A stretch of 64,000 nucleotides of DNA, taken from positions 124,001-188,000 of the forward strand of contig CAJAHH010000010.1 of assembly GCA_903939515.1 (NCBI GenBank). Reading direction: 5' to 3'. Below the pieces are notes generated by a model that saw only the letters and a list, made by a program, of their open reading frames with translations, ran no database searches and had not been told where the DNA came from. Every line of letters starts with the position of its first letter. The stretch's first letter is position 1. The position numbers were made by a program, and so were the translations under genes. This document shows positions 16,993-25,015 of the stretch, one piece after another. The stretch comes from an uncultured Verrucomicrobiota bacterium. Its GTDB lineage: Bacteria > Verrucomicrobiota > Verrucomicrobiia > Limisphaerales > UBA9464.

Positions 16993-17021
16993 AAAAAAGC
17001 CCGCCTCACGGCGGGCTTTTT
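16993..17021 (+). terminator. Rho-independent terminator after ilvN
   Basis: AAAAAAGCCCGCC-TCAC-GGCGGGCTTTTT. Confidence 0.93.
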
Positions 17022-17095
17022 CGTTTAGAACGGCTTTGGCCTGCGGGAAAGTCCGGATGAACCGAACCCCGGTCTCCGAACCCGCAGAGGACAAA

Positions 17096-17656
17096 TCACT
17101 TCGCCTTCAATGCCGCCTCAATGGCTGCGACCACCTCGGTGGCATCGGGCTGAGTGCGAGGGCTGAAGCGATGCAGCACCTTGCCATCACGACCCACGAG
17201 GAACTTACCAAAGTTCCACTCGATCGGGCCCGGGAACGCTGCCTCTTTGCCTGAGAGCACCGAGTACAAGGGGTGCTGCTCCGGCGGGTTGACGTTCAGT
17301 TTGGCGAAGAGCGGGAAGCTCACCGAGTACTTGGTCGAGCAGAAGCTCTTAATCTCATCGGCCGTGCCCGGCTCCTGAGCTCCGAACTGATTGCACGGAA
17401 ATCCGAGCACCTCGAGACCCTGCCCGTGGTACTTCTTATAGAGTGCTTCCAACTGCTTGTACTGCGGGGTCAGACCACATTGCGAGGCAACGTTGACCAC
17501 CAACAGCACCTTACCGGAGTAGGCTTTGAGGGAGGTGTCCTTACCGTCGATGTCCTTAAGTTTGACCTCTTGGAGAGGAGTGGATGCGATCATAGTGAAG
17601 GTAGTTGCGGCCAGAGCGACGACGCGGATCAGGCCGGTAATAAGGGAACTATTCAT
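17096..17656 (-). CDS. glutathione peroxidase family protein (Cys type)
   Basis: GKVLLVVNVASQCGLTPQYKQLEALY; GFPCNQFGAQEPG; EWNFGKFLVGRDG. Confidence 0.95.
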   Translation of the reverse strand: MNSSLITGLIRVVALAATTFTMIASTPLQEVKLKDIDGKDTSLKAYSGKVLLVVNVASQCGLTPQYKQLEALYKKYHGQGLEVLGFPCNQFGAQEPGTADEIKSFCSTKYSVSFPLFAKLNVNPPEQHPLYSVLSGKEAAFPGPIEWNFGKFLVGRDGKVLHRFSPRTQPDATEVVAAIEAALKAK

Positions 17657-17746
17657 GAATTGAAATGTTACCCCATCTCGCAGGGAGTCAACCGTGCGCT
17701 TTCAACCGATGCTTGCCGGCCGGGCGCTGAGGCCCACTCTCAGGCC

Positions 17747-18337
17747 GTGCGCATTATCGGAGGACTGGCTGCAGGCCGACTATTGAAGGTTCCAGAAGGA
17801 CTCGGAGTCCGCCCCACGCCCGACAAGGTCAAACTGGCGGTTTTCAACAGCCTGGGAGCCTTCTTAGATGGAGCACGGGTCTTGGACTTGTTCGCCGGCA
17901 GCGGAGCCCTTGGTCTAGAATGCCTGAGTCGCGGCGCTCGAGAAATGGTCAGCATCGAGAAGTCTGAGAAACACGCCCGATTCTTCCGCCAAAATCTCGC
18001 CGCCTCAGGCTTACCCGTCACTGCGGTAACTTTGCGCGTCCAGGATGTGTTTTTGGTGTTTCCCCAACTGGCGCAAAGCGGACGCCAATTTGACCTCATC
18101 ATCGCCGACCCTCCCTATGGCGAGAAGAACGTCGGCCGTCGATCGACCTCCCTCGCCCAATTGCTGCTCGATGACATCGTGTTGCCAGGACTTTTGGCAC
18201 CCGGCGGGTTGTTCGTGGCGGGCCACACCAAGCGCGACACCCTGGAGATCCCCGCCACCTGGAAGGAGCGCAAAGACATGCGACACGGCGACACGGTGAT
18301 GCGATTTCTGGAGCGCCCCGATGAGAAACGCGATTGA
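17747..18337 (+). CDS. rsmD: 16S rRNA (guanine966-N2)-methyltransferase RsmD
   Basis: GTG start VRIIGGLAAGRLLKVPEGLGVRPTPDKVKLAVFNSLG; DLFAGSGALGLE; ADPPYG. Confidence 0.92.
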   Translation: MRIIGGLAAGRLLKVPEGLGVRPTPDKVKLAVFNSLGAFLDGARVLDLFAGSGALGLECLSRGAREMVSIEKSEKHARFFRQNLAASGLPVTAVTLRVQDVFLVFPQLAQSGRQFDLIIADPPYGEKNVGRRSTSLAQLLLDDIVLPGLLAPGGLFVAGHTKRDTLEIPATWKERKDMRHGDTVMRFLERPDEKRD

Positions 18338-19295
18338 ACTCCTCATGGCCGCCATCGCTCTCGCCTGCCTGGGGATGACTTCGATGGCCGCCGAACCCGA
18401 TCTGGCCGGCCACACATCGGCCTCGCATTCCCTGGCCTTGCAGCGCTCGGTGGATAACGCCGTTGCCAAGACCTTGGCCCGCACTTGGAACCCGCCGCTT
18501 CAGGCCCAGCAACTCGCCGTCACGGCCGTGGATTTGAGCGAGCCCCAGAAGCCCACCTTCGCCTCGGCCCGAGGAACGGAACCCGTCTACCCGGCGAGCG
18601 TCATCAAGCTGTTCCATCAAGCCGCCGTGCATCGCTGGATGGAGGACCGGAAAATTCAAGATACGGCCGAGGTGCGACGGGCCCTCCGCGACATGATCGT
18701 GGAGTCGTACAACGAGCCCACCCACTACCTCATCGATCTCCTCACCGGCACCACCAGCGGACCAGAACTGCCCGAAGCGGACCTGAAGACCTGGTGGGAA
18801 CGGCGTAACGCGGTGAATCGCTGGTTCCATTCCATGGGTTATCCGAGCGCGATCAACGCCAGCAAGAAGCCCTGGTGCGAAGGCCCGTATGGGCGGGAAA
18901 GTCAGGCCATCGCCGCCTATGAACCCCGGCGCAATTTCCTGACCACCGAAGCCACGGCGCGCCTGATGCTTGAGATGGCGTTGGGGCAGTGCGTCAACCC
19001 CGACCGATCGCGCCAGATGCTAGAGCTCATGGCCCGGGATTTCACCGCACCGGCCACCGACCCCGAAGACCAAGCCCACGGGTACACCGGACTCGCACTA
19101 AAGCCCGGAACGAAGCTGTGGTCCAAGTGTGGTCTGACTAGTCAGACCCGCCACGATGCCGCCCTGGTGGAACTCCCCTCCGGCAAACGCATCATCCTGG
19201 TCATTTTCACCACCGACCACGCCACCGAACGGGACATCATCCCCACCGTGGCCCGGGAAATTCTCACCTCGATCGGCTCTCCGCCCCAACCTTGA
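18321..19295 (+). CDS. serine hydrolase (class A beta-lactamase-like)
   Basis: signal peptide; YPASVIKLFHQAAVHRWME (SxxK); overlaps rsmD by 17 nt. Confidence 0.8.
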   Translation: MRNAIELLMAAIALACLGMTSMAAEPDLAGHTSASHSLALQRSVDNAVAKTLARTWNPPLQAQQLAVTAVDLSEPQKPTFASARGTEPVYPASVIKLFHQAAVHRWMEDRKIQDTAEVRRALRDMIVESYNEPTHYLIDLLTGTTSGPELPEADLKTWWERRNAVNRWFHSMGYPSAINASKKPWCEGPYGRESQAIAAYEPRRNFLTTEATARLMLEMALGQCVNPDRSRQMLELMARDFTAPATDPEDQAHGYTGLALKPGTKLWSKCGLTSQTRHDAALVELPSGKRIILVIFTTDHATERDIIPTVAREILTSIGSPPQP

Positions 19296-19366
19296 TCCTC
19301 CGGTTCTCAGTTTCGGATCCCATCGCCCGCCGTCGGAACACGTTTGAACCGACCGCCCTCAAGGCC

Positions 19367-19393
19367 GCCCGGTGAGGGCACTGAGCCTACAGC
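19367..19393. repeat. dispersed intergenic repeat A (GCCCGGTGAGGGCAC[C/T]GAGCCTACAGC)
   Basis: nearly identical to 1910-1936. Confidence 0.85.
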
Positions 19394-19447
19394 GCACCAC
19401 CAACCCGCAACGTCACCCTGAAGGCCAGAGTCCCCCGCCCTTACCCA

Positions 19448-19505
19448 CCTTCGCGGCGCTTCCGGTCCGCCAGGATCGAGTCCTCTCGGCCCGTTTTTTG
19501 CCCAA
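19448..19505. repeat. dispersed intergenic repeat B, copy 1
   Basis: ccttcgcggcgcttccggtccgcca...gatcgagtcctctcggcccgttttttgcccaa, shared with 20008-20079 and 21341-21400. Confidence 0.9.
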
Positions 19506-19584
19506 TTCCTCGGCAACCAAGATTCGGCCCACTGCTCATCCGCCGACCCCAGCGACAGACGCAAGCCTCCTTGGACAGTTCGCT

Positions 19585-19674
19585 GCGGCATTCCCCTCGC
19601 GGGTGGGGAGAACGAAGCCCGTGGCGATGATGACTCGGGCGTGATCGGACCATCCCCACGTGGGTGGGGAGAAC
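19585..19674 (-). CRISPR. minimal one-spacer CRISPR-like relic, type I-E-like repeats
   Basis: two 29-nt repeats (19585-19613, 19646-19674; 22/29 identical) separated by exactly 32 nt; minus-strand repeat GTTCTCCCCACCCACGTGGGGATGGTCCG resembles the I-E form GTNNTCCCC...GGGGATNNNCCG; second repeat degenerate at its 3' end. No cas genes in window. Confidence 0.5.
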
Positions 19675-19772
19675 TCGATGAGGACCGTTCAGGTCCTCAG
19701 GAGAATTGATGGTGAGCTCCCGCGAGGGTCCATTGCGGTTGCCTCGATTTCTCGGACGGTGAGGAAGGGAGA

Positions 19773-19979
19773 TTGATTACCTTGAAGCCCATCAAAGAAT
19801 CCCCTCCAAAAACCCGCCGCAAGTTCGACACCACCTTCAAGCGCGAGGCTGTCGGCAACTGGCTTTGCAGTGGCAAATCCGCTGCCGTCGTCGCCAAGGA
19901 ACTCGGTCTCACAGAAGGACTGCTCTTCGCCTGGCGCAAGCTCCTGCCCCCCCCCCGACGACGCTGGGGGGAGAAATAA
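19773..19979 (+). pseudogene. truncated IS3-family transposase OrfA (HTH_Tnp_1-like) remnant
   Basis: RRKFDTTFKREAVGNWLCSGKSAAVVAKELGLTEGLLFAWRK, ends shortly after a C10 homopolymer; no OrfB follows. Confidence 0.75.
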
Positions 19980-20007
19980 TTGTCGTTGAACATGGCGTGA
20001 GAACCGC

Positions 20008-20079
20008 CACCTTCGCGGCCCCGCCGGGTCGCCCACCTCCCGGTGGAGATCGAGTCCTCTCGGCCCGTTTTTTGCCCAA
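20008..20079. repeat. dispersed intergenic repeat B, copy 2
   Basis: accttcgcggccccgccgggtcgcccacctcccggtggagatcgagtcctctcggcccgttttttgcccaa. Confidence 0.9.
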
Positions 20080-20090
20080 CTCAGATGAAG

Positions 20091-20159
20091 GGGGAATGGA
20101 CGGTAAGACACCATCCCTACCAGATGCACGGGGATGAACGGTGAGACACCGCCCCTACC
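20091..20159. repeat. two copies of repeat C (GGGGAATGGACGGTGAGACACCGCCCCTACC)
   Basis: 20091-20121 and 20130-20159; contains palindrome GGTG-AGA-CACC. Confidence 0.9.
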
Positions 20160-20211
20160 GACTGTCGCTTTGTTGAAAGGTTCAGTCGGGGCCGAGCGAA
20201 TAACTGGGGAC

Positions 20212-21237
20212 ATGGCCAAGCCGCTCAATCACGACAGCCCTTGGAAAGACACCATCGAACAGTTCACCCGGTCTTTCCTTGAAGTCACCTTTCCCGAGGT
20301 CGCCGCCGGCATCGATTGGTCAGTCCAGCCCGAATCACTCGAGCAAGAACTCCGCGAGATTACCCCGGCCTCCGAGGTCGGGGCCAAGCGGGTCGACAAA
20401 CTTCTCAAAGTCCGCCTCCTCGATGGCACCGACCAGTGGCTCTACATTCACATCGAGGTCCAGATGCACTACGACCCCGGTCTGCCCAAGCGCCTTTTCA
20501 TCTACCACTACCGCATCTTCGACAAATACGGCGTCAGCCCGCTCACCCTTGCCATCCTCGGAGACACTAGCCGGAAATGGCGCCCCACATCCTACCACTA
20601 CCAATCCCTCGGCTGCGGCATCACCTTCCTCTTCCTCATCTGCAAGACCATCGACTTCAGGGGCAAGCTCGACGACCCGCGCTACCGGCACCAACAAACA
20701 CTCTTCGTTATTGCCGCCCATCTCGGTACCCAAGAACACCGGCGGAACCCACAGAACCTCTTCGCCTGCCTCCTCGAACTCACCGTCAAACTTGGCAACG
20801 AGGGATACTCCCCATCGGAAATCCAACAATTGCACCGCCTGATCGACTGGTTGATGCCGCTGCCCGGCGCGCTTAAGCTCCAGTTCAGAAACCAACTCCA
20901 GCAACGCCTAACCGACAAAACCATGCCCCACATCACCCTCTTCGAAGAACTCGCCCTTAAAGAAGGCCTTGAGAAAGGCATCCAGAAAGGCATCCAGAAA
21001 GGCATCCAGAAAGGCATCCAGAAAGGTCTCTTGGAAGGCCGCCAGGAAGGCCTTGAAAAAGGCATCGTCCAAACCGCCCGCGAGGCGATTCTTGATGTTC
21101 TCGACTCTCGGTTCGGCGAAGTGTCTGACGCCGTCCGCGAGCGCATTAACACCCTCGACGATGATCGCACCCTCAGGGATCTGCTGCGCCGCGCTGCCCG
21201 AGTACCCAGCCTCACCGAATTTTCAGTCGGTCTGTGA
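20212..21237 (+). CDS. Rpn-family recombination-promoting nuclease / putative transposase (PD-(D/E)XK)
   Basis: KRVDKLLKVRLLDGTDQWLYIHIEVQMHYDPGLPKRLFIYHYRIFDKYG (D...ExQ core); C-terminal KGIQKG repeats. Confidence 0.82.
   Translation: MAKPLNHDSPWKDTIEQFTRSFLEVTFPEVAAGIDWSVQPESLEQELREITPASEVGAKRVDKLLKVRLLDGTDQWLYIHIEVQMHYDPGLPKRLFIYHYRIFDKYGVSPLTLAILGDTSRKWRPTSYHYQSLGCGITFLFLICKTIDFRGKLDDPRYRHQQTLFVIAAHLGTQEHRRNPQNLFACLLELTVKLGNEGYSPSEIQQLHRLIDWLMPLPGALKLQFRNQLQQRLTDKTMPHITLFEELALKEGLEKGIQKGIQKGIQKGIQKGLLEGRQEGLEKGIVQTAREAILDVLDSRFGEVSDAVRERINTLDDDRTLRDLLRRAARVPSLTEFSVGL
20977..21024 (+). repeat. four perfect 12-bp tandem repeats ggcatccagaaa inside the rpn-like gene
   Basis: units at 20977, 20989, 21001, 21013 encoding (GIQK)4. 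Confidence 0.98.
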
Positions 21238-21257
21238 ATCCACCCCTCGGCAAGCCC

Positions 21258-21339
21258 GGGGAATGGACGGTGAGACACCGCCCCTACCGGTTACAGGGGA
21301 ATGGATGGTGGGTTACCATCGCGAGCGATGGCCCTTACC
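21258..21339. repeat. two further copies of repeat C (second diverged)
   Basis: 21258-21288 ggggaatggacggtgagacaccgcccctacc; 21296-21339 ggggaatggatggtgggttaccatcgcgagcgatggcccttacc. Confidence 0.8.
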
Positions 21340-21340
21340 C

Positions 21341-21400
21341 GCCTTCGCGGCGCGTCCGGGCCGCCCACCTCCCGGTGGAGATCGAGTCCTCTCGGTCCGC
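21341..21400. repeat. dispersed intergenic repeat B, copy 3
   Basis: gccttcgcggcgcgtccgggccgcccacctcccggtggagatcgagtcctctcggtccgc. Confidence 0.9.
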
Positions 21401-21411
21401 ACGTGGCCACC

Positions 21412-21432
21412 GGCGCTTTCGGAGAAATCGCC
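21412..21432. repeat. dispersed hairpin repeat D, copy 1 (GGCGCTTTCGGAGAAATCGCC)
   Basis: identical 21-mer at 24588-24608; stem pairs GGCG/CGCC and TTTC/GAAA. Confidence 0.85.
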
Positions 21433-21464
21433 ACGCCCTACCGCCCTCAGAGAGGGCTCGGATC

Positions 21465-22826
21465 TTAGCTCAACTGATCGAGGCGGCCGGTGCTGTCGCC
21501 GAGGCGCTCCGTTGGCGCGCCCATCCGGTCGAGCATCGACAAGAACAAGTTAGCCATCGGGGTGTTCTTGGCATACCGGACATGGCGTCCCGGTTTGATG
21601 GTGCCACCGCCCCGTCCTGCAAGCAGGACCGGCAAGTCGTGGTGGGCGTGGGACATGCCGTCTTCAATGGCGCTGCCGTACACGATCATCGAATTATCCA
21701 GCAGGCTGCTGCCATCAGACTCCCGCGTGTCCTGAAGCTGTTTCAGCCAAGCGGCGAATAACTGCATGTGGAAGACGTTGATCTTGGCGATCTTCTCCTT
21801 CTTGTCCTCCTTGCTCTCGTGATGAGACAGGTCGTGATGCCCCTCCTTGACCCCGATGACCGGATACGGGCGATTGCTGCCATCATGAGCCATCACGAAG
21901 GAGCCGATCCGAGTGCTGTCGGTGCGGAACGCCAACGTCATGATGTCGAACATCAACTTTACGTGATCTTCGTACTTGGCCGGAACTCCTTCCGGGCGGG
22001 TGTGGTCGGGCAACTCGACGCCCACCTTATCGGCCATGGCGATGCGGCGTTCCACATCGCGCACCGCGCTCATGTACTCGTCGAGTTTGTGCTGATCGTT
22101 GCGACCCAGTTGGCCGTGCAGACGCTGGGCGTCCTCTAATACGAAATCGAGAACACTGGAACGCCGCGCCTGGCGCCGAGCACGCACCTCGGCCGATTCA
22201 CCTGAGTCTCCCTGAGTAAACAATCGGTCGAAGGCCAGCTTCGGATCCACTTCTGGCGGCATGGGCGTGGAGCCCGAGCGCCAGGATACATTGAAGGAGT
22301 AGGCGCAGCTGTAACCCGAATCACACTGGCCGGAAAGTTGCCCTCGGTCGGTGCCCAGTTCGAGGCTGGGGAACCGGGTGTGGTTGCCCACCTTCTGGGC
22401 GGCCAATTGGTCCACAGACACGCCCACCCGGATGTCCGCGCCCTGCGTCTTGCGCGCCTGGCAGGCCGTCAAGAATGTCGCCGAAGCCCGGGCATGATCG
22501 CCGGCACCGTCGCCATTGGGGCGAGCCTTGTCGTGTGCCAACCCGCTCAGCACGGTGAGCTGGTCACGCACCGGAGCCAGTGGCTGCAAAATACGAGGCA
22601 ACTCGAAGGACGAACCGGTCTGCTCGGGCGTCCAGTGCTTCATGAGAGCCCCGTTCGGGATGTACACGAAGGCCATCCTCAAGGGGGGCTTGCCCGCCGA
22701 AGCCGCAGCACCGGCTGCAGCCCCCAATGCGCGAACAGCCGGAGCCGAAGCTAGAAACGGTAACGCGACCGCGGTACCCAATCCTCGGAGAAAGGTTCGT
22801 CTCGGCTGATGTTCGAAAAGGCTCAT
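21465..22826 (-). CDS. DUF1552 domain-containing secreted protein
   Basis: MSLFEHQPRRTFLRGLGTAVALPFLASAPAVRA; PPLRMAFVYIPNGALMKHWTPEQ; RDQLTVLSGLAHDKA. Confidence 0.9.
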   Translation of the reverse strand: MSLFEHQPRRTFLRGLGTAVALPFLASAPAVRALGAAAGAAASAGKPPLRMAFVYIPNGALMKHWTPEQTGSSFELPRILQPLAPVRDQLTVLSGLAHDKARPNGDGAGDHARASATFLTACQARKTQGADIRVGVSVDQLAAQKVGNHTRFPSLELGTDRGQLSGQCDSGYSCAYSFNVSWRSGSTPMPPEVDPKLAFDRLFTQGDSGESAEVRARRQARRSSVLDFVLEDAQRLHGQLGRNDQHKLDEYMSAVRDVERRIAMADKVGVELPDHTRPEGVPAKYEDHVKLMFDIMTLAFRTDSTRIGSFVMAHDGSNRPYPVIGVKEGHHDLSHHESKEDKKEKIAKINVFHMQLFAAWLKQLQDTRESDGSSLLDNSMIVYGSAIEDGMSHAHHDLPVLLAGRGGGTIKPGRHVRYAKNTPMANLFLSMLDRMGAPTERLGDSTGRLDQLS

Positions 22827-22985
22827 AACGATGGGGCTTTGGACGGCTGAACTTGATACCGAATTTAACCCTGTTTGAGTTGAACTCAAGGTTTCCGAGC
22901 AGACGAAGTCGGAGTTTTCAAGTTTCCCTGAATTATCACGGCCCAAACTTTGGCGTCCGGCCCGGAATTCGTTAGACTGCACCCC

Positions 22986-24452
22986 ATGCGGAGCCGCTTG
23001 TTGCTACTAACCTGCCTGTGGGTGGGTTCGGCATTCCTCGGCCACACCGATCCGGCCACGCCCCCGGCGAATCCTCTTCCGGCTCCCCCGTCCAACACCT
23101 CGTCCAATACCGCCGCGTCCAATACCGCCCCAATTTCTTCGGCCGCCTCAGCGGTCCGGAAAGGGCTTCAGTGGAACGCCGCAACCGATCGCTACGCGGC
23201 ATCGATCCCCGGATGGCCTATCCAACGGGTTTTGGCACGTTTGAGCGGTCAAACCGGCTGGCGGGTTTGGATCGAAGATGGGATCGAAACCCAAATTCGG
23301 GCCCAGTTCCGAAACTTGCCCGCCCGAGAGGCGTTGCCGCGGATCCTCGGTGGATTGAATTATTCACTCACCACCTCCAGCAACGGTCGCCGGGAACTCA
23401 AGGTGTTCGCCACGCAAGCTCGGTCCAGCACCCTTGAAATCGTGGCCGATGAGGGCGATGGGATGATCGCCAACGAATTGATCGTCCGTTCCAAATCCGG
23501 TTCCCCCATCGATCTAAAATTCTTGGCTGGTCTGAATGGAGCCAGCCTGGTGGGAACCAACGGAGTGGCCGGGGCCTATCAAATCCGCTTTGATTCGGAG
23601 AAACTGGCCGAGGACGCCAAGCAGACGCTGGCCAATGAGTCCGAAGACCTCGCGGTCGAGAACAACCAACGGCTCGACTCCCCGGATGCGCCTGTCGCGG
23701 TCTCCGGAATAACCGCCCCGCCCTTGCGATTGACGGCCACGGTGCGACCCGATGGGAACCGGCGGGTGATCGCGCTTATCGACTCGGCACCGCAACCGCT
23801 GGCTCCGGCTTTCCAGTCCTTCCTGCTGCCCACCGTCGATCTCGTGCCGGGAGCCCCGGCCTCGGGTGGCCCTTCGCACGGCACTTCCATGGCGGAGGCG
23901 ATGGTTCGTGGCCTGAGCGCCGGATCGACTGAAACCAGCACCAGCACCCGCATCCAGCCGTACAATGTTTACGGTGCCAGCGAGTCGGCCTCGACGTGGG
24001 ACGTAGCCCGCGGAATCACACAAGCCGCCCAAGACGGTTCCACCATCATCAACCTGTCACTTGGCAGTGCCCAAGACAGCCCCTACCTCCGGGACGTCAT
24101 CCAGCAAGTCACTGGTCAGGGAGCGTTGGTCATTGCCGCAGCGGGCAACAATGGCACCGCCGATCCCTTCTACCCGGCCGCCTATGATGCAACGCTGGCG
24201 GTGACCGCCACGGGACGCTCCGGACAGCTGACGCCCTACGCCAACCGGGGCGGCTTCGTCGATCTGGGAGTACCCGGTTCGACCGTAGTTCAGATGGATG
24301 GGCAGTCGTGGGTGGTTCAGGGCACGTCGGTCTCGGCCGCCTACGCCTCAGGCATGGCTGGAGCCTTGGCTCAAAACCCACAGACGTCGCTGGCTCCGGT
24401 CCGCTCCAAGCTCATCGAAACCTTCCCCATCCAGCGGGCCAAGGGCCCCTGA
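22986..24452 (+). CDS. S8 subtilisin-like serine protease, secreted
   Basis: signal peptide; GGPSHGTSMAEAM (His), VIAAAGNNG, GTSVSAAYASGMAGAL (Ser). Confidence 0.88.
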   Translation: MRSRLLLLTCLWVGSAFLGHTDPATPPANPLPAPPSNTSSNTAASNTAPISSAASAVRKGLQWNAATDRYAASIPGWPIQRVLARLSGQTGWRVWIEDGIETQIRAQFRNLPAREALPRILGGLNYSLTTSSNGRRELKVFATQARSSTLEIVADEGDGMIANELIVRSKSGSPIDLKFLAGLNGASLVGTNGVAGAYQIRFDSEKLAEDAKQTLANESEDLAVENNQRLDSPDAPVAVSGITAPPLRLTATVRPDGNRRVIALIDSAPQPLAPAFQSFLLPTVDLVPGAPASGGPSHGTSMAEAMVRGLSAGSTETSTSTRIQPYNVYGASESASTWDVARGITQAAQDGSTIINLSLGSAQDSPYLRDVIQQVTGQGALVIAAAGNNGTADPFYPAAYDATLAVTATGRSGQLTPYANRGGFVDLGVPGSTVVQMDGQSWVVQGTSVSAAYASGMAGALAQNPQTSLAPVRSKLIETFPIQRAKGP

Positions 24453-24587
24453 AATGGAATCCTTGTCCCTCCGGGTGCGGTCACTCGCAGTTGGTTTTAG
24501 CCCCCCCGAGAGGACGCCCGAGGACCTCCTGGATAGGGGCTGATCTTCGAGCGGTCCAGCTCTGCGGCGGTCCATGTCTGCGGACGT

Positions 24588-24608
24588 GGCGCTTTCGGAG
24601 AAATCGCC
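24588..24608. repeat. dispersed hairpin repeat D, copy 2
   Basis: identical to 21412-21432. Confidence 0.85.
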
Positions 24609-25015
24609 CTGCCTCGGAGGTGCTCAGGCAAGGTGGGGTCTCAGCAACAATCCGGAATCTATGGGACGTTGCCGGTTTGAAATCCGCGGTTTTGCCGGAT
24701 TCTCGGATCTGTTTTGTTTCAGGATGAGCACCCGCGTTTCTTCCTTCTTCCAAATGGGGCCGAGTGCATCCGGGGCCCACTAGACTTGATAAGAATTTCC
24801 TCGGGCAACCGACAAGCTGAGGCCAGATCGATGATACGTTGAGTTTCTGGGATCAGCGGTTTTCAGACCGGCAGGTTTCATCGGTTTTCACACCGTCACT
24901 GACAATCCCCCTCTGATCAGATAAGTCGGGGTACAAACCTTACCCTCGGGGTCTTAAGCCCCGCTTGGCCAGCCACGAGGTTTGTCACCTCATCCCTGCC
25001 CGTCACAACCCGCAC

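Follow-up and report, generated by a model that had tools for sequence, protein, structure and literature searches.

REP clusters flanking an rpn gene in an uncultured Verrucomicrobiota bacterium and a probable route for its passive duplication

GTAG-type REPs consist of a GTAG head followed by a hairpin and are hypothesised to be mobilised by RAYTs (PMC3733652, PMC2817692). In the described GTAG-REP and BIME systems with a RAYT, termed REPtrons, several REP families are found per genome, REPs form dimers of opposite orientation, RAYT genes have REPs on both sides, and the elements are located in spacers (PMC2817692, PMC3733652). The repeats around an rpn nuclease gene in the 64,000-nucleotide stretch of DNA that we analysed (the window) are alike in all of these respects. 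Two of the repeat types, B and C, nevertheless depart from this picture: they are few here and cluster at rpn and toxin-antitoxin loci instead of being distributed genome-wide, their orientation relative to rpn is fixed, and the genome's own assembly lacks a RAYT for the B/C pair.

The rpn gene itself resembles the RpnL/RpnS family (COG5464 / TIGR01784), for which a layout of an internal start and variable repeats was reported by Zhong et al. (PMC10327210). The likeness extends to a PD-(D/E)XK-type D...E-x-Q motif, an internal Met, variable 4-aa repeats, the existence of several paralogs and a presence/absence pattern among relatives (PMC10327210). No flanking inverted repeats could be identified at published rpn genes; the clade described here, in contrast, has ordered REP clusters on both sides of the gene. 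Work on the spread of rpn found neither terminal repeats nor a transposase role, and rpn genes elsewhere are not considered transposases (PMC10327210).

Integron and CALIN arrays are alike in that single genes alternate with palindromic modules of one orientation; unlike for them, no integrase was found for the arrays described here, whose modules are REPs and in which rpn is on one strand and the toxin-antitoxin genes are on the other. In enterobacteria, genes are known to be duplicated by recombination between REP sequences. There, as here, direct REPs can serve as substrates for duplicating or deleting the intervening DNA; in contrast, the segments here are defence cassettes, and the orientation is uniform at 16 loci in several species. 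In this clade, the spread of rpn has a concrete and testable candidate route: the gene may hitch-hike on REP clusters that RAYTs have made and that serve as joints for recombination. REPs, which are usually viewed as selfish or housekeeping repeats, are also tied in this way to phage-defence gene turnover.

The rpn gene and the repeat cluster around it

Features of the locus are collected in the table. Where genomes have to be told apart, G000 is this genome, other G numbers are its relatives, and C numbers after a colon are contigs.

Features of the rpn locus, in window coordinates
Feature	Position	Strand	Basis or remark
D-type REP (GTAGGCTCAGTGCCCTCACCGGGCGG)	19365..19390	-	2 mismatches vs D consensus
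B0, third B copy, beyond the bracket initially annotated	19437..19508	+	74-97% over its parts
Two CRISPR-like repeats, 61 bp apart, apparent remnant array	19592..19674	.	repeat comparison
Truncated transposase OrfA / IS66 TnpA-like fragment (HTH_Tnp_1)	19773..19979	+	PF01527 E=8e-9; NF047595 weak
B1, B REP unit	20007..20082	+	GTAG-type hairpin within right half
C REP copy 1	20091..20121	-	repeat comparison and consensus scan
C REP copy 2	20130..20159	-	repeat comparison and consensus scan
38-nt leader common to rpn paralogs	20174..20211	+	matches in C105, C106 and C6 all begin at 20174
rpn (RpnL), PD-(D/E)XK-type nuclease, 341 aa	20212..21237	+	weak TIGR01784 match, alignment
Candidate internal antitoxin RpnS, 104 aa	20923..21237	+	starts at invariant Met238; predicted
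12-bp tandem repeats encoding KGIQ-type 4-aa units	20963..21046	+	copy number varies among sister copies
C REP copy 3	21258..21288	-	exact match to consensus
Degenerate C copy 4	21296..21336 (about)	-	25 nt at 80%
B2, B REP unit	21331..21401	+	repeat comparison and consensus scan
R-type REP	21412..21436	-	homology to rpn-less sister sites restarts at 21407, its edge

The window protein matches the Rpn family model TIGR01784 weakly but specifically (E=7.5e-6; 25.9 bits, below the cut-off of 52.1), and its full-length identity to annotated Rpn proteins is 33-34% (34% over 97%). In an alignment of eight sequences, D62, E82 and Q84 are invariant and constitute the D...E-x-Q/K active-site motif; Met238 is also invariant and is followed by 4-aa repeats, the number of which depends on the copy. 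The start at 20212 is conserved in relatives, and there is an in-frame ATG at 20134 as well. No sequence relative of the window protein was found in the PDB, and its single-sequence structure model is too poor to bear on the nuclease fold (pLDDT 46). Pairwise comparison of rpn copies gave dN/dS of 0.16-0.30, and purifying selection thus acts on the gene. A role as antiphage toxin is assigned from the Rpn family (PMC10327210); by analogy, this rpn would encode the toxin RpnL together with an antitoxin, RpnS, in the same frame and would function in phage defence. Another dispersed repeat (ATGACGCTATGGCACCTTTTGTGTAAATAGGTGGGACCGACC), present on many contigs of the genus (G000:C105 1645-1693 and G000:C106 3313-3363 among them), disrupts one of the rpn paralogs near codon 187.

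The initial annotation had described rpn as bracketed by copies of B and C in mirrored order, B-C-C-[rpn]-C-C-B. The repeats are real, lie where they had been placed and have the same direct orientation on both sides: the two B copies at 20007-20067 and 21339-21399 align in direct orientation over 61 nt with 90% identity (E=2e-19). The second downstream C, on the other hand, is degenerate; its match is confined to the first 15-25 nt or so, although it is kept in G014 and G017. When positions 17001-25000 were scanned with five consensus sequences of the GTAG-hairpin type, nine elements were detected, whereas Markov shuffles of the region gave none in 49 of 50 cases and one in the remaining case. 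Over the whole window, the same scan gave 10 REP matches as opposed to none in the reversed control. The mirrored order is therefore present but incidental: because B0, D and R elements belong to the same cluster, the symmetric bracket is part of a longer run of REPs. As a meaningful feature, the symmetry was rejected, being seen elsewhere only at the orthologous locus of G014; other rpn copies have different orders, e.g., rpn-D-B-C(x5) or rpn-D-E-R.

The segment between B0 and B1, which holds the transposase fragment, is missing from G014; its place is taken by a single D-B unit. In G001, four CRISPR-like repeats of the kind seen in the window lie at 61-bp spacing beside cas3 (G001:C162 765-2106), so the two-repeat copy in the window looks like a remnant.

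REP families and their RAYT genes

A GTAG head followed by a hairpin-forming palindrome was found in four consensus sequences. Read on the appropriate strand, the consensus of C is GTAG-GGGCGGTG-TCT-CACCGTCC (hairpin z=-2.96), that of R is GTAG-GGCGATTTC-TCC-GAAAGCGCC, and that of B is GTAG-GGAACGAG-TCCT-CTCGGTCC; D has the consensus GTAG-GCCCGGTG-CCCT-CACCGGGC, with an 8-bp hairpin after the GTAG (z=-3.75). DNA folds of all four place the stem directly after the head (z from -2.2 to -3.75), and the hairpins of C, R and D exceed those of shuffled sequences. The window's own B copies have a GTGG or degenerate head and fold weakly (z=-1.3). The fifth consensus, E, has a weaker GTAG-hairpin layout that is no better than shuffles (z=-0.3). 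The REP-like nature proposed for B and C is thus borne out by their layout and extends to D, E and R. The R family is dispersed, with 92 copies genome-wide (51 on the plus and 41 on the minus strand; none in the control), most of them at sites without rpn. B and C have about 8-12 copies each, which is a low count for REPs. Rfam gave no match, even at E 0.5, and a known structured RNA was rejected on this ground.

RAYT genes with flanking REPs were found for B/C, R and D. In G014, a RAYT gene (G014:C222, 254-709) is flanked by B-C-C at one end and by B-C-C-B-C at the opposite end; its product matches NF047646 with E=4e-21 and 75.4 bits, just under the curated cut-off of 80. This RAYT is full-length only in G014, and relatives that are 47-53% identical to it occur in other families of the order. 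The genome under study has a RAYT of its own on G000:C68, which scores 85.8 bits against the same NF047646 (REP_Tyr_transpos) cut-off of 80 and sits between R elements. The R pair is direct, whereas the REPtron layout as described has an inverted REP pair. On G001:C74 and G005:C168, D elements with 5 mismatches flank RAYT homologues on each side. Since the B/C-bracketed RAYT was found only in G014 and no RAYT of this pair was detected in the genome's own assembly, B and C would be orphan REPs in this genome.

Given the GTAG-hairpin layout and the RAYT genes bracketed by REPs, B and C are most likely REPs of the RAYT type, and the evidence for their REP identity is strong. Upstream of rpn, B+ ... 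C- pairs make up BIME-like composites, which belong to a set of no fewer than five families (B, C, D, E, R) in the genus.

Association with rpn, orientation and variable sites

Strong B copies are found on four contigs of this genome, all of which have rpn paralogs, and in G000, G001, G005 and G017 a strong B always adjoins rpn. Significant B matches among the 59 relatives are essentially limited to G001, G005, G014 and G017; two weak ones were found in G016 and G029. In G000, G001, G005 and G017, full-length B is nearly exclusive to clade-II rpn genes, whereas several B copies in G014 adjoin RAYT or toxin-antitoxin genes rather than rpn. As a background for the repeat counts, we used 790 kb of long contigs from this genome, which gave 22 REP matches (none in the control); all three B and all three C matches lie within the rpn locus, and a D-R pair on C15 lies beside an rpn 3' fragment. 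An association of B and C with rpn, proposed earlier as a check, holds for B in G000, G001, G005 and G017, but about half of the C copies have no rpn nearby, and neither C nor R is rpn-specific. Among the clade-I rpn genes scanned (about 50% identical), none had REPs nearby.

The REPs located up to 1 kb from 16 clade-II rpn copies or fragments all point the same way relative to the gene, 70 of 70 in total (B+17, C-17, R-17, D-10 and E+9), although these copies are related and hence not independent. R elements over the whole genome, by contrast, are split 51/41. At several loci without rpn, REPs have mixed orientations relative to each other. Distances recur as well: at most copies, the rpn stop is followed by C- after 21-22 bp or by D- after 25-35 bp. 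On the one hand, the uniform orientation argues against piecemeal insertion and for orientation-preserving co-duplication or exchange. On the other hand, it could stem from one old block duplication rather than from continuing exchange. The zeta/AAA, MNT/HEPN, VapBC-like and HicAB cassettes, all of them on the strand opposite to rpn, are likewise set apart by REP clusters. Toxin-antitoxin-like arrays (zeta/AAA, MNT/HEPN, HicAB) with REP modules of about 115-310 bp in between are found on G000:C106, G005:C226, G003:C187 and G014:C286.

A further expectation, that the rpn segment varies between relatives, was confirmed: sister genomes have orthologous sites without rpn, and one breakpoint falls exactly at a REP. 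The genomes compared are fragmented assemblies (mostly 70-980 contigs) broken at these very repeats, and rpn copies and REPs are often located where contigs end, which means that assembly errors could affect some of the junctions. In G000, G014 and G017, the order is rpn-C-(C)-B-R-DUF1552. In G001 and G005, the DUF1552 gene is accompanied by an R element and glycosyltransferase-like genes (this name, like DegP-like below, reflects the look of the sequence only), with no rpn, B or C, and homology with these two genomes restarts at 21407, the edge of R. In G015, the beta-lactamase-like and DUF1552 genes are only 24 bp apart. Left-hand breakpoints are imprecise in these comparisons. A clean empty site in G014, with a single R as opposed to R-cargo-R, was considered and dropped, as only its right edge is precise.

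Two further loci bear on how the flanks behave. On G001:C162, an orthologous rpn (96% identical) lies beside the beta-lactamase-like gene as B-R-E-R-rpn-B, followed by a CRISPR array and cas3; the colinear place in G000 has a single B0 and the CRISPR remnant. At a second, DegP-like locus in G014, where the contig begins in the rpn 3' end, this end is followed by C-C'-B that is 85% identical to the block in the window, and the C-C'-B flank was thus co-duplicated with rpn. At the G000 orthologue of that site, one more D-B unit separates rpn from C.

Explanations for the arrangement

The explanation that we consider probable is that an rpn toxin/internal-antitoxin gene resides in a REP-punctuated defence array and is passively duplicated and rearranged by recombination between direct REP clusters. 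RAYT single-strand (HUH) transposases would have spread the REPs; rpn would be carried passively, alongside toxin-antitoxin genes, in an array with REP clusters of one orientation between its cassettes; and recombination between these direct-repeat clusters could result in duplication, deletion and exchange of rpn and its neighbours. We infer that RAYT moved these REPs and that homologous recombination between REPs moves rpn, the latter step being drawn from fragmented assemblies.

The simplest competing scenario is that RAYT inserted the REPs independently into tolerant spacers of a dispensable defence region, with no mobility common to rpn and the repeats. The roughly 90 dispersed R sites, most of them without rpn, the location of REPs in spacers and the clade-I rpn genes without REPs, which show that the two are separable, all fit this scenario, but the single orientation of 70/70 elements, the recurrence of element order and distance at unlinked copies and the two loci at which C-C'-B was duplicated together with the 3' end of rpn do not, and we regard it as unlikely. 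Somewhat less likely still, the repeats could be mainly RNA or DNA signals (bidirectional terminators or mRNA stabilisers) between rpn and DUF1552 that limit read-through and toxin dosage, with recombination being incidental. C or D hairpins are indeed seen 21-35 bp past most rpn stops, rpn and DUF1552 are convergent, and REPs lie near gene 3' ends in other species (PMC3733652). However, similar clusters are found upstream of rpn starts, the hairpins are not followed by T-tracts and have no Rfam match, and a signal role leaves the restriction of B to rpn loci and the variable sites unexplained. It is also rather doubtful that the locus is an integrase-free cassette system with oriented REP clusters as joints for rpn and other toxin-antitoxin genes, in which cuts by Rpn stimulate recombination and thereby raise the copy number of its own gene.

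The initial annotation had proposed that the repeats delimit a mobile or recombining cassette or are REP-like targets of Rpn. Neither an Rpn-driven element with B and C as its ends nor action of Rpn on them found support. That B and C are ends of an rpn-encoded transposon or cassette, cut and moved by Rpn as a PD-(D/E)XK nuclease, is very improbable, even though the B repeats are direct at those clade-II copies that have both flanks assembled and a B on each side (G000:C10, G014:C184, G001:C162, and G005:C226, whose downstream B is truncated) and copies and empty sites differ among species. Abundant REPs occur away from rpn, there are B clusters around RAYT and toxin-antitoxin genes where no rpn is found, clade-I rpn genes lack B and C, and the order and length of the flanks are not fixed. 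An insertion sequence or transposon was rejected, since the flanking repeats are direct and the ends vary among copies; no target-site duplication was seen in the site comparison. In vitro, no sequence specificity could be detected for RpnA (PMC5350276), and terminal repeats are lacking at rpn genes elsewhere (PMC10327210), so action of Rpn on B and C is unlikely; RAYTs are the natural partners of REPs. An integron-like array, in which B/E/R clusters would be attC-type sites and rpn and toxin-antitoxin genes would be cassettes captured by an integrase, is barely credible. Cassettes do alternate with conserved palindromic modules of one orientation, but rpn is on the strand opposite to its toxin-antitoxin neighbours, and the elements are laid out as GTAG-REPs and associated with RAYTs. 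A search of G000, G001 and G005 gave no integron integrase that passed the TIGR02249 cut-off, and the integron explanation was rejected for this reason.

Passive duplication of rpn by recombination between REP clusters thus remains our preferred reading for the clade-II copies. The spacer next to DUF1552 has a further occupant: in five other relatives (G002:C60, G003:C24, G007:C27, G010:C126 and G018:C246), the same spacer holds a clade-I rpn, about 50% identical, in the opposite orientation. Two rpn lineages were apparently placed independently at this site.
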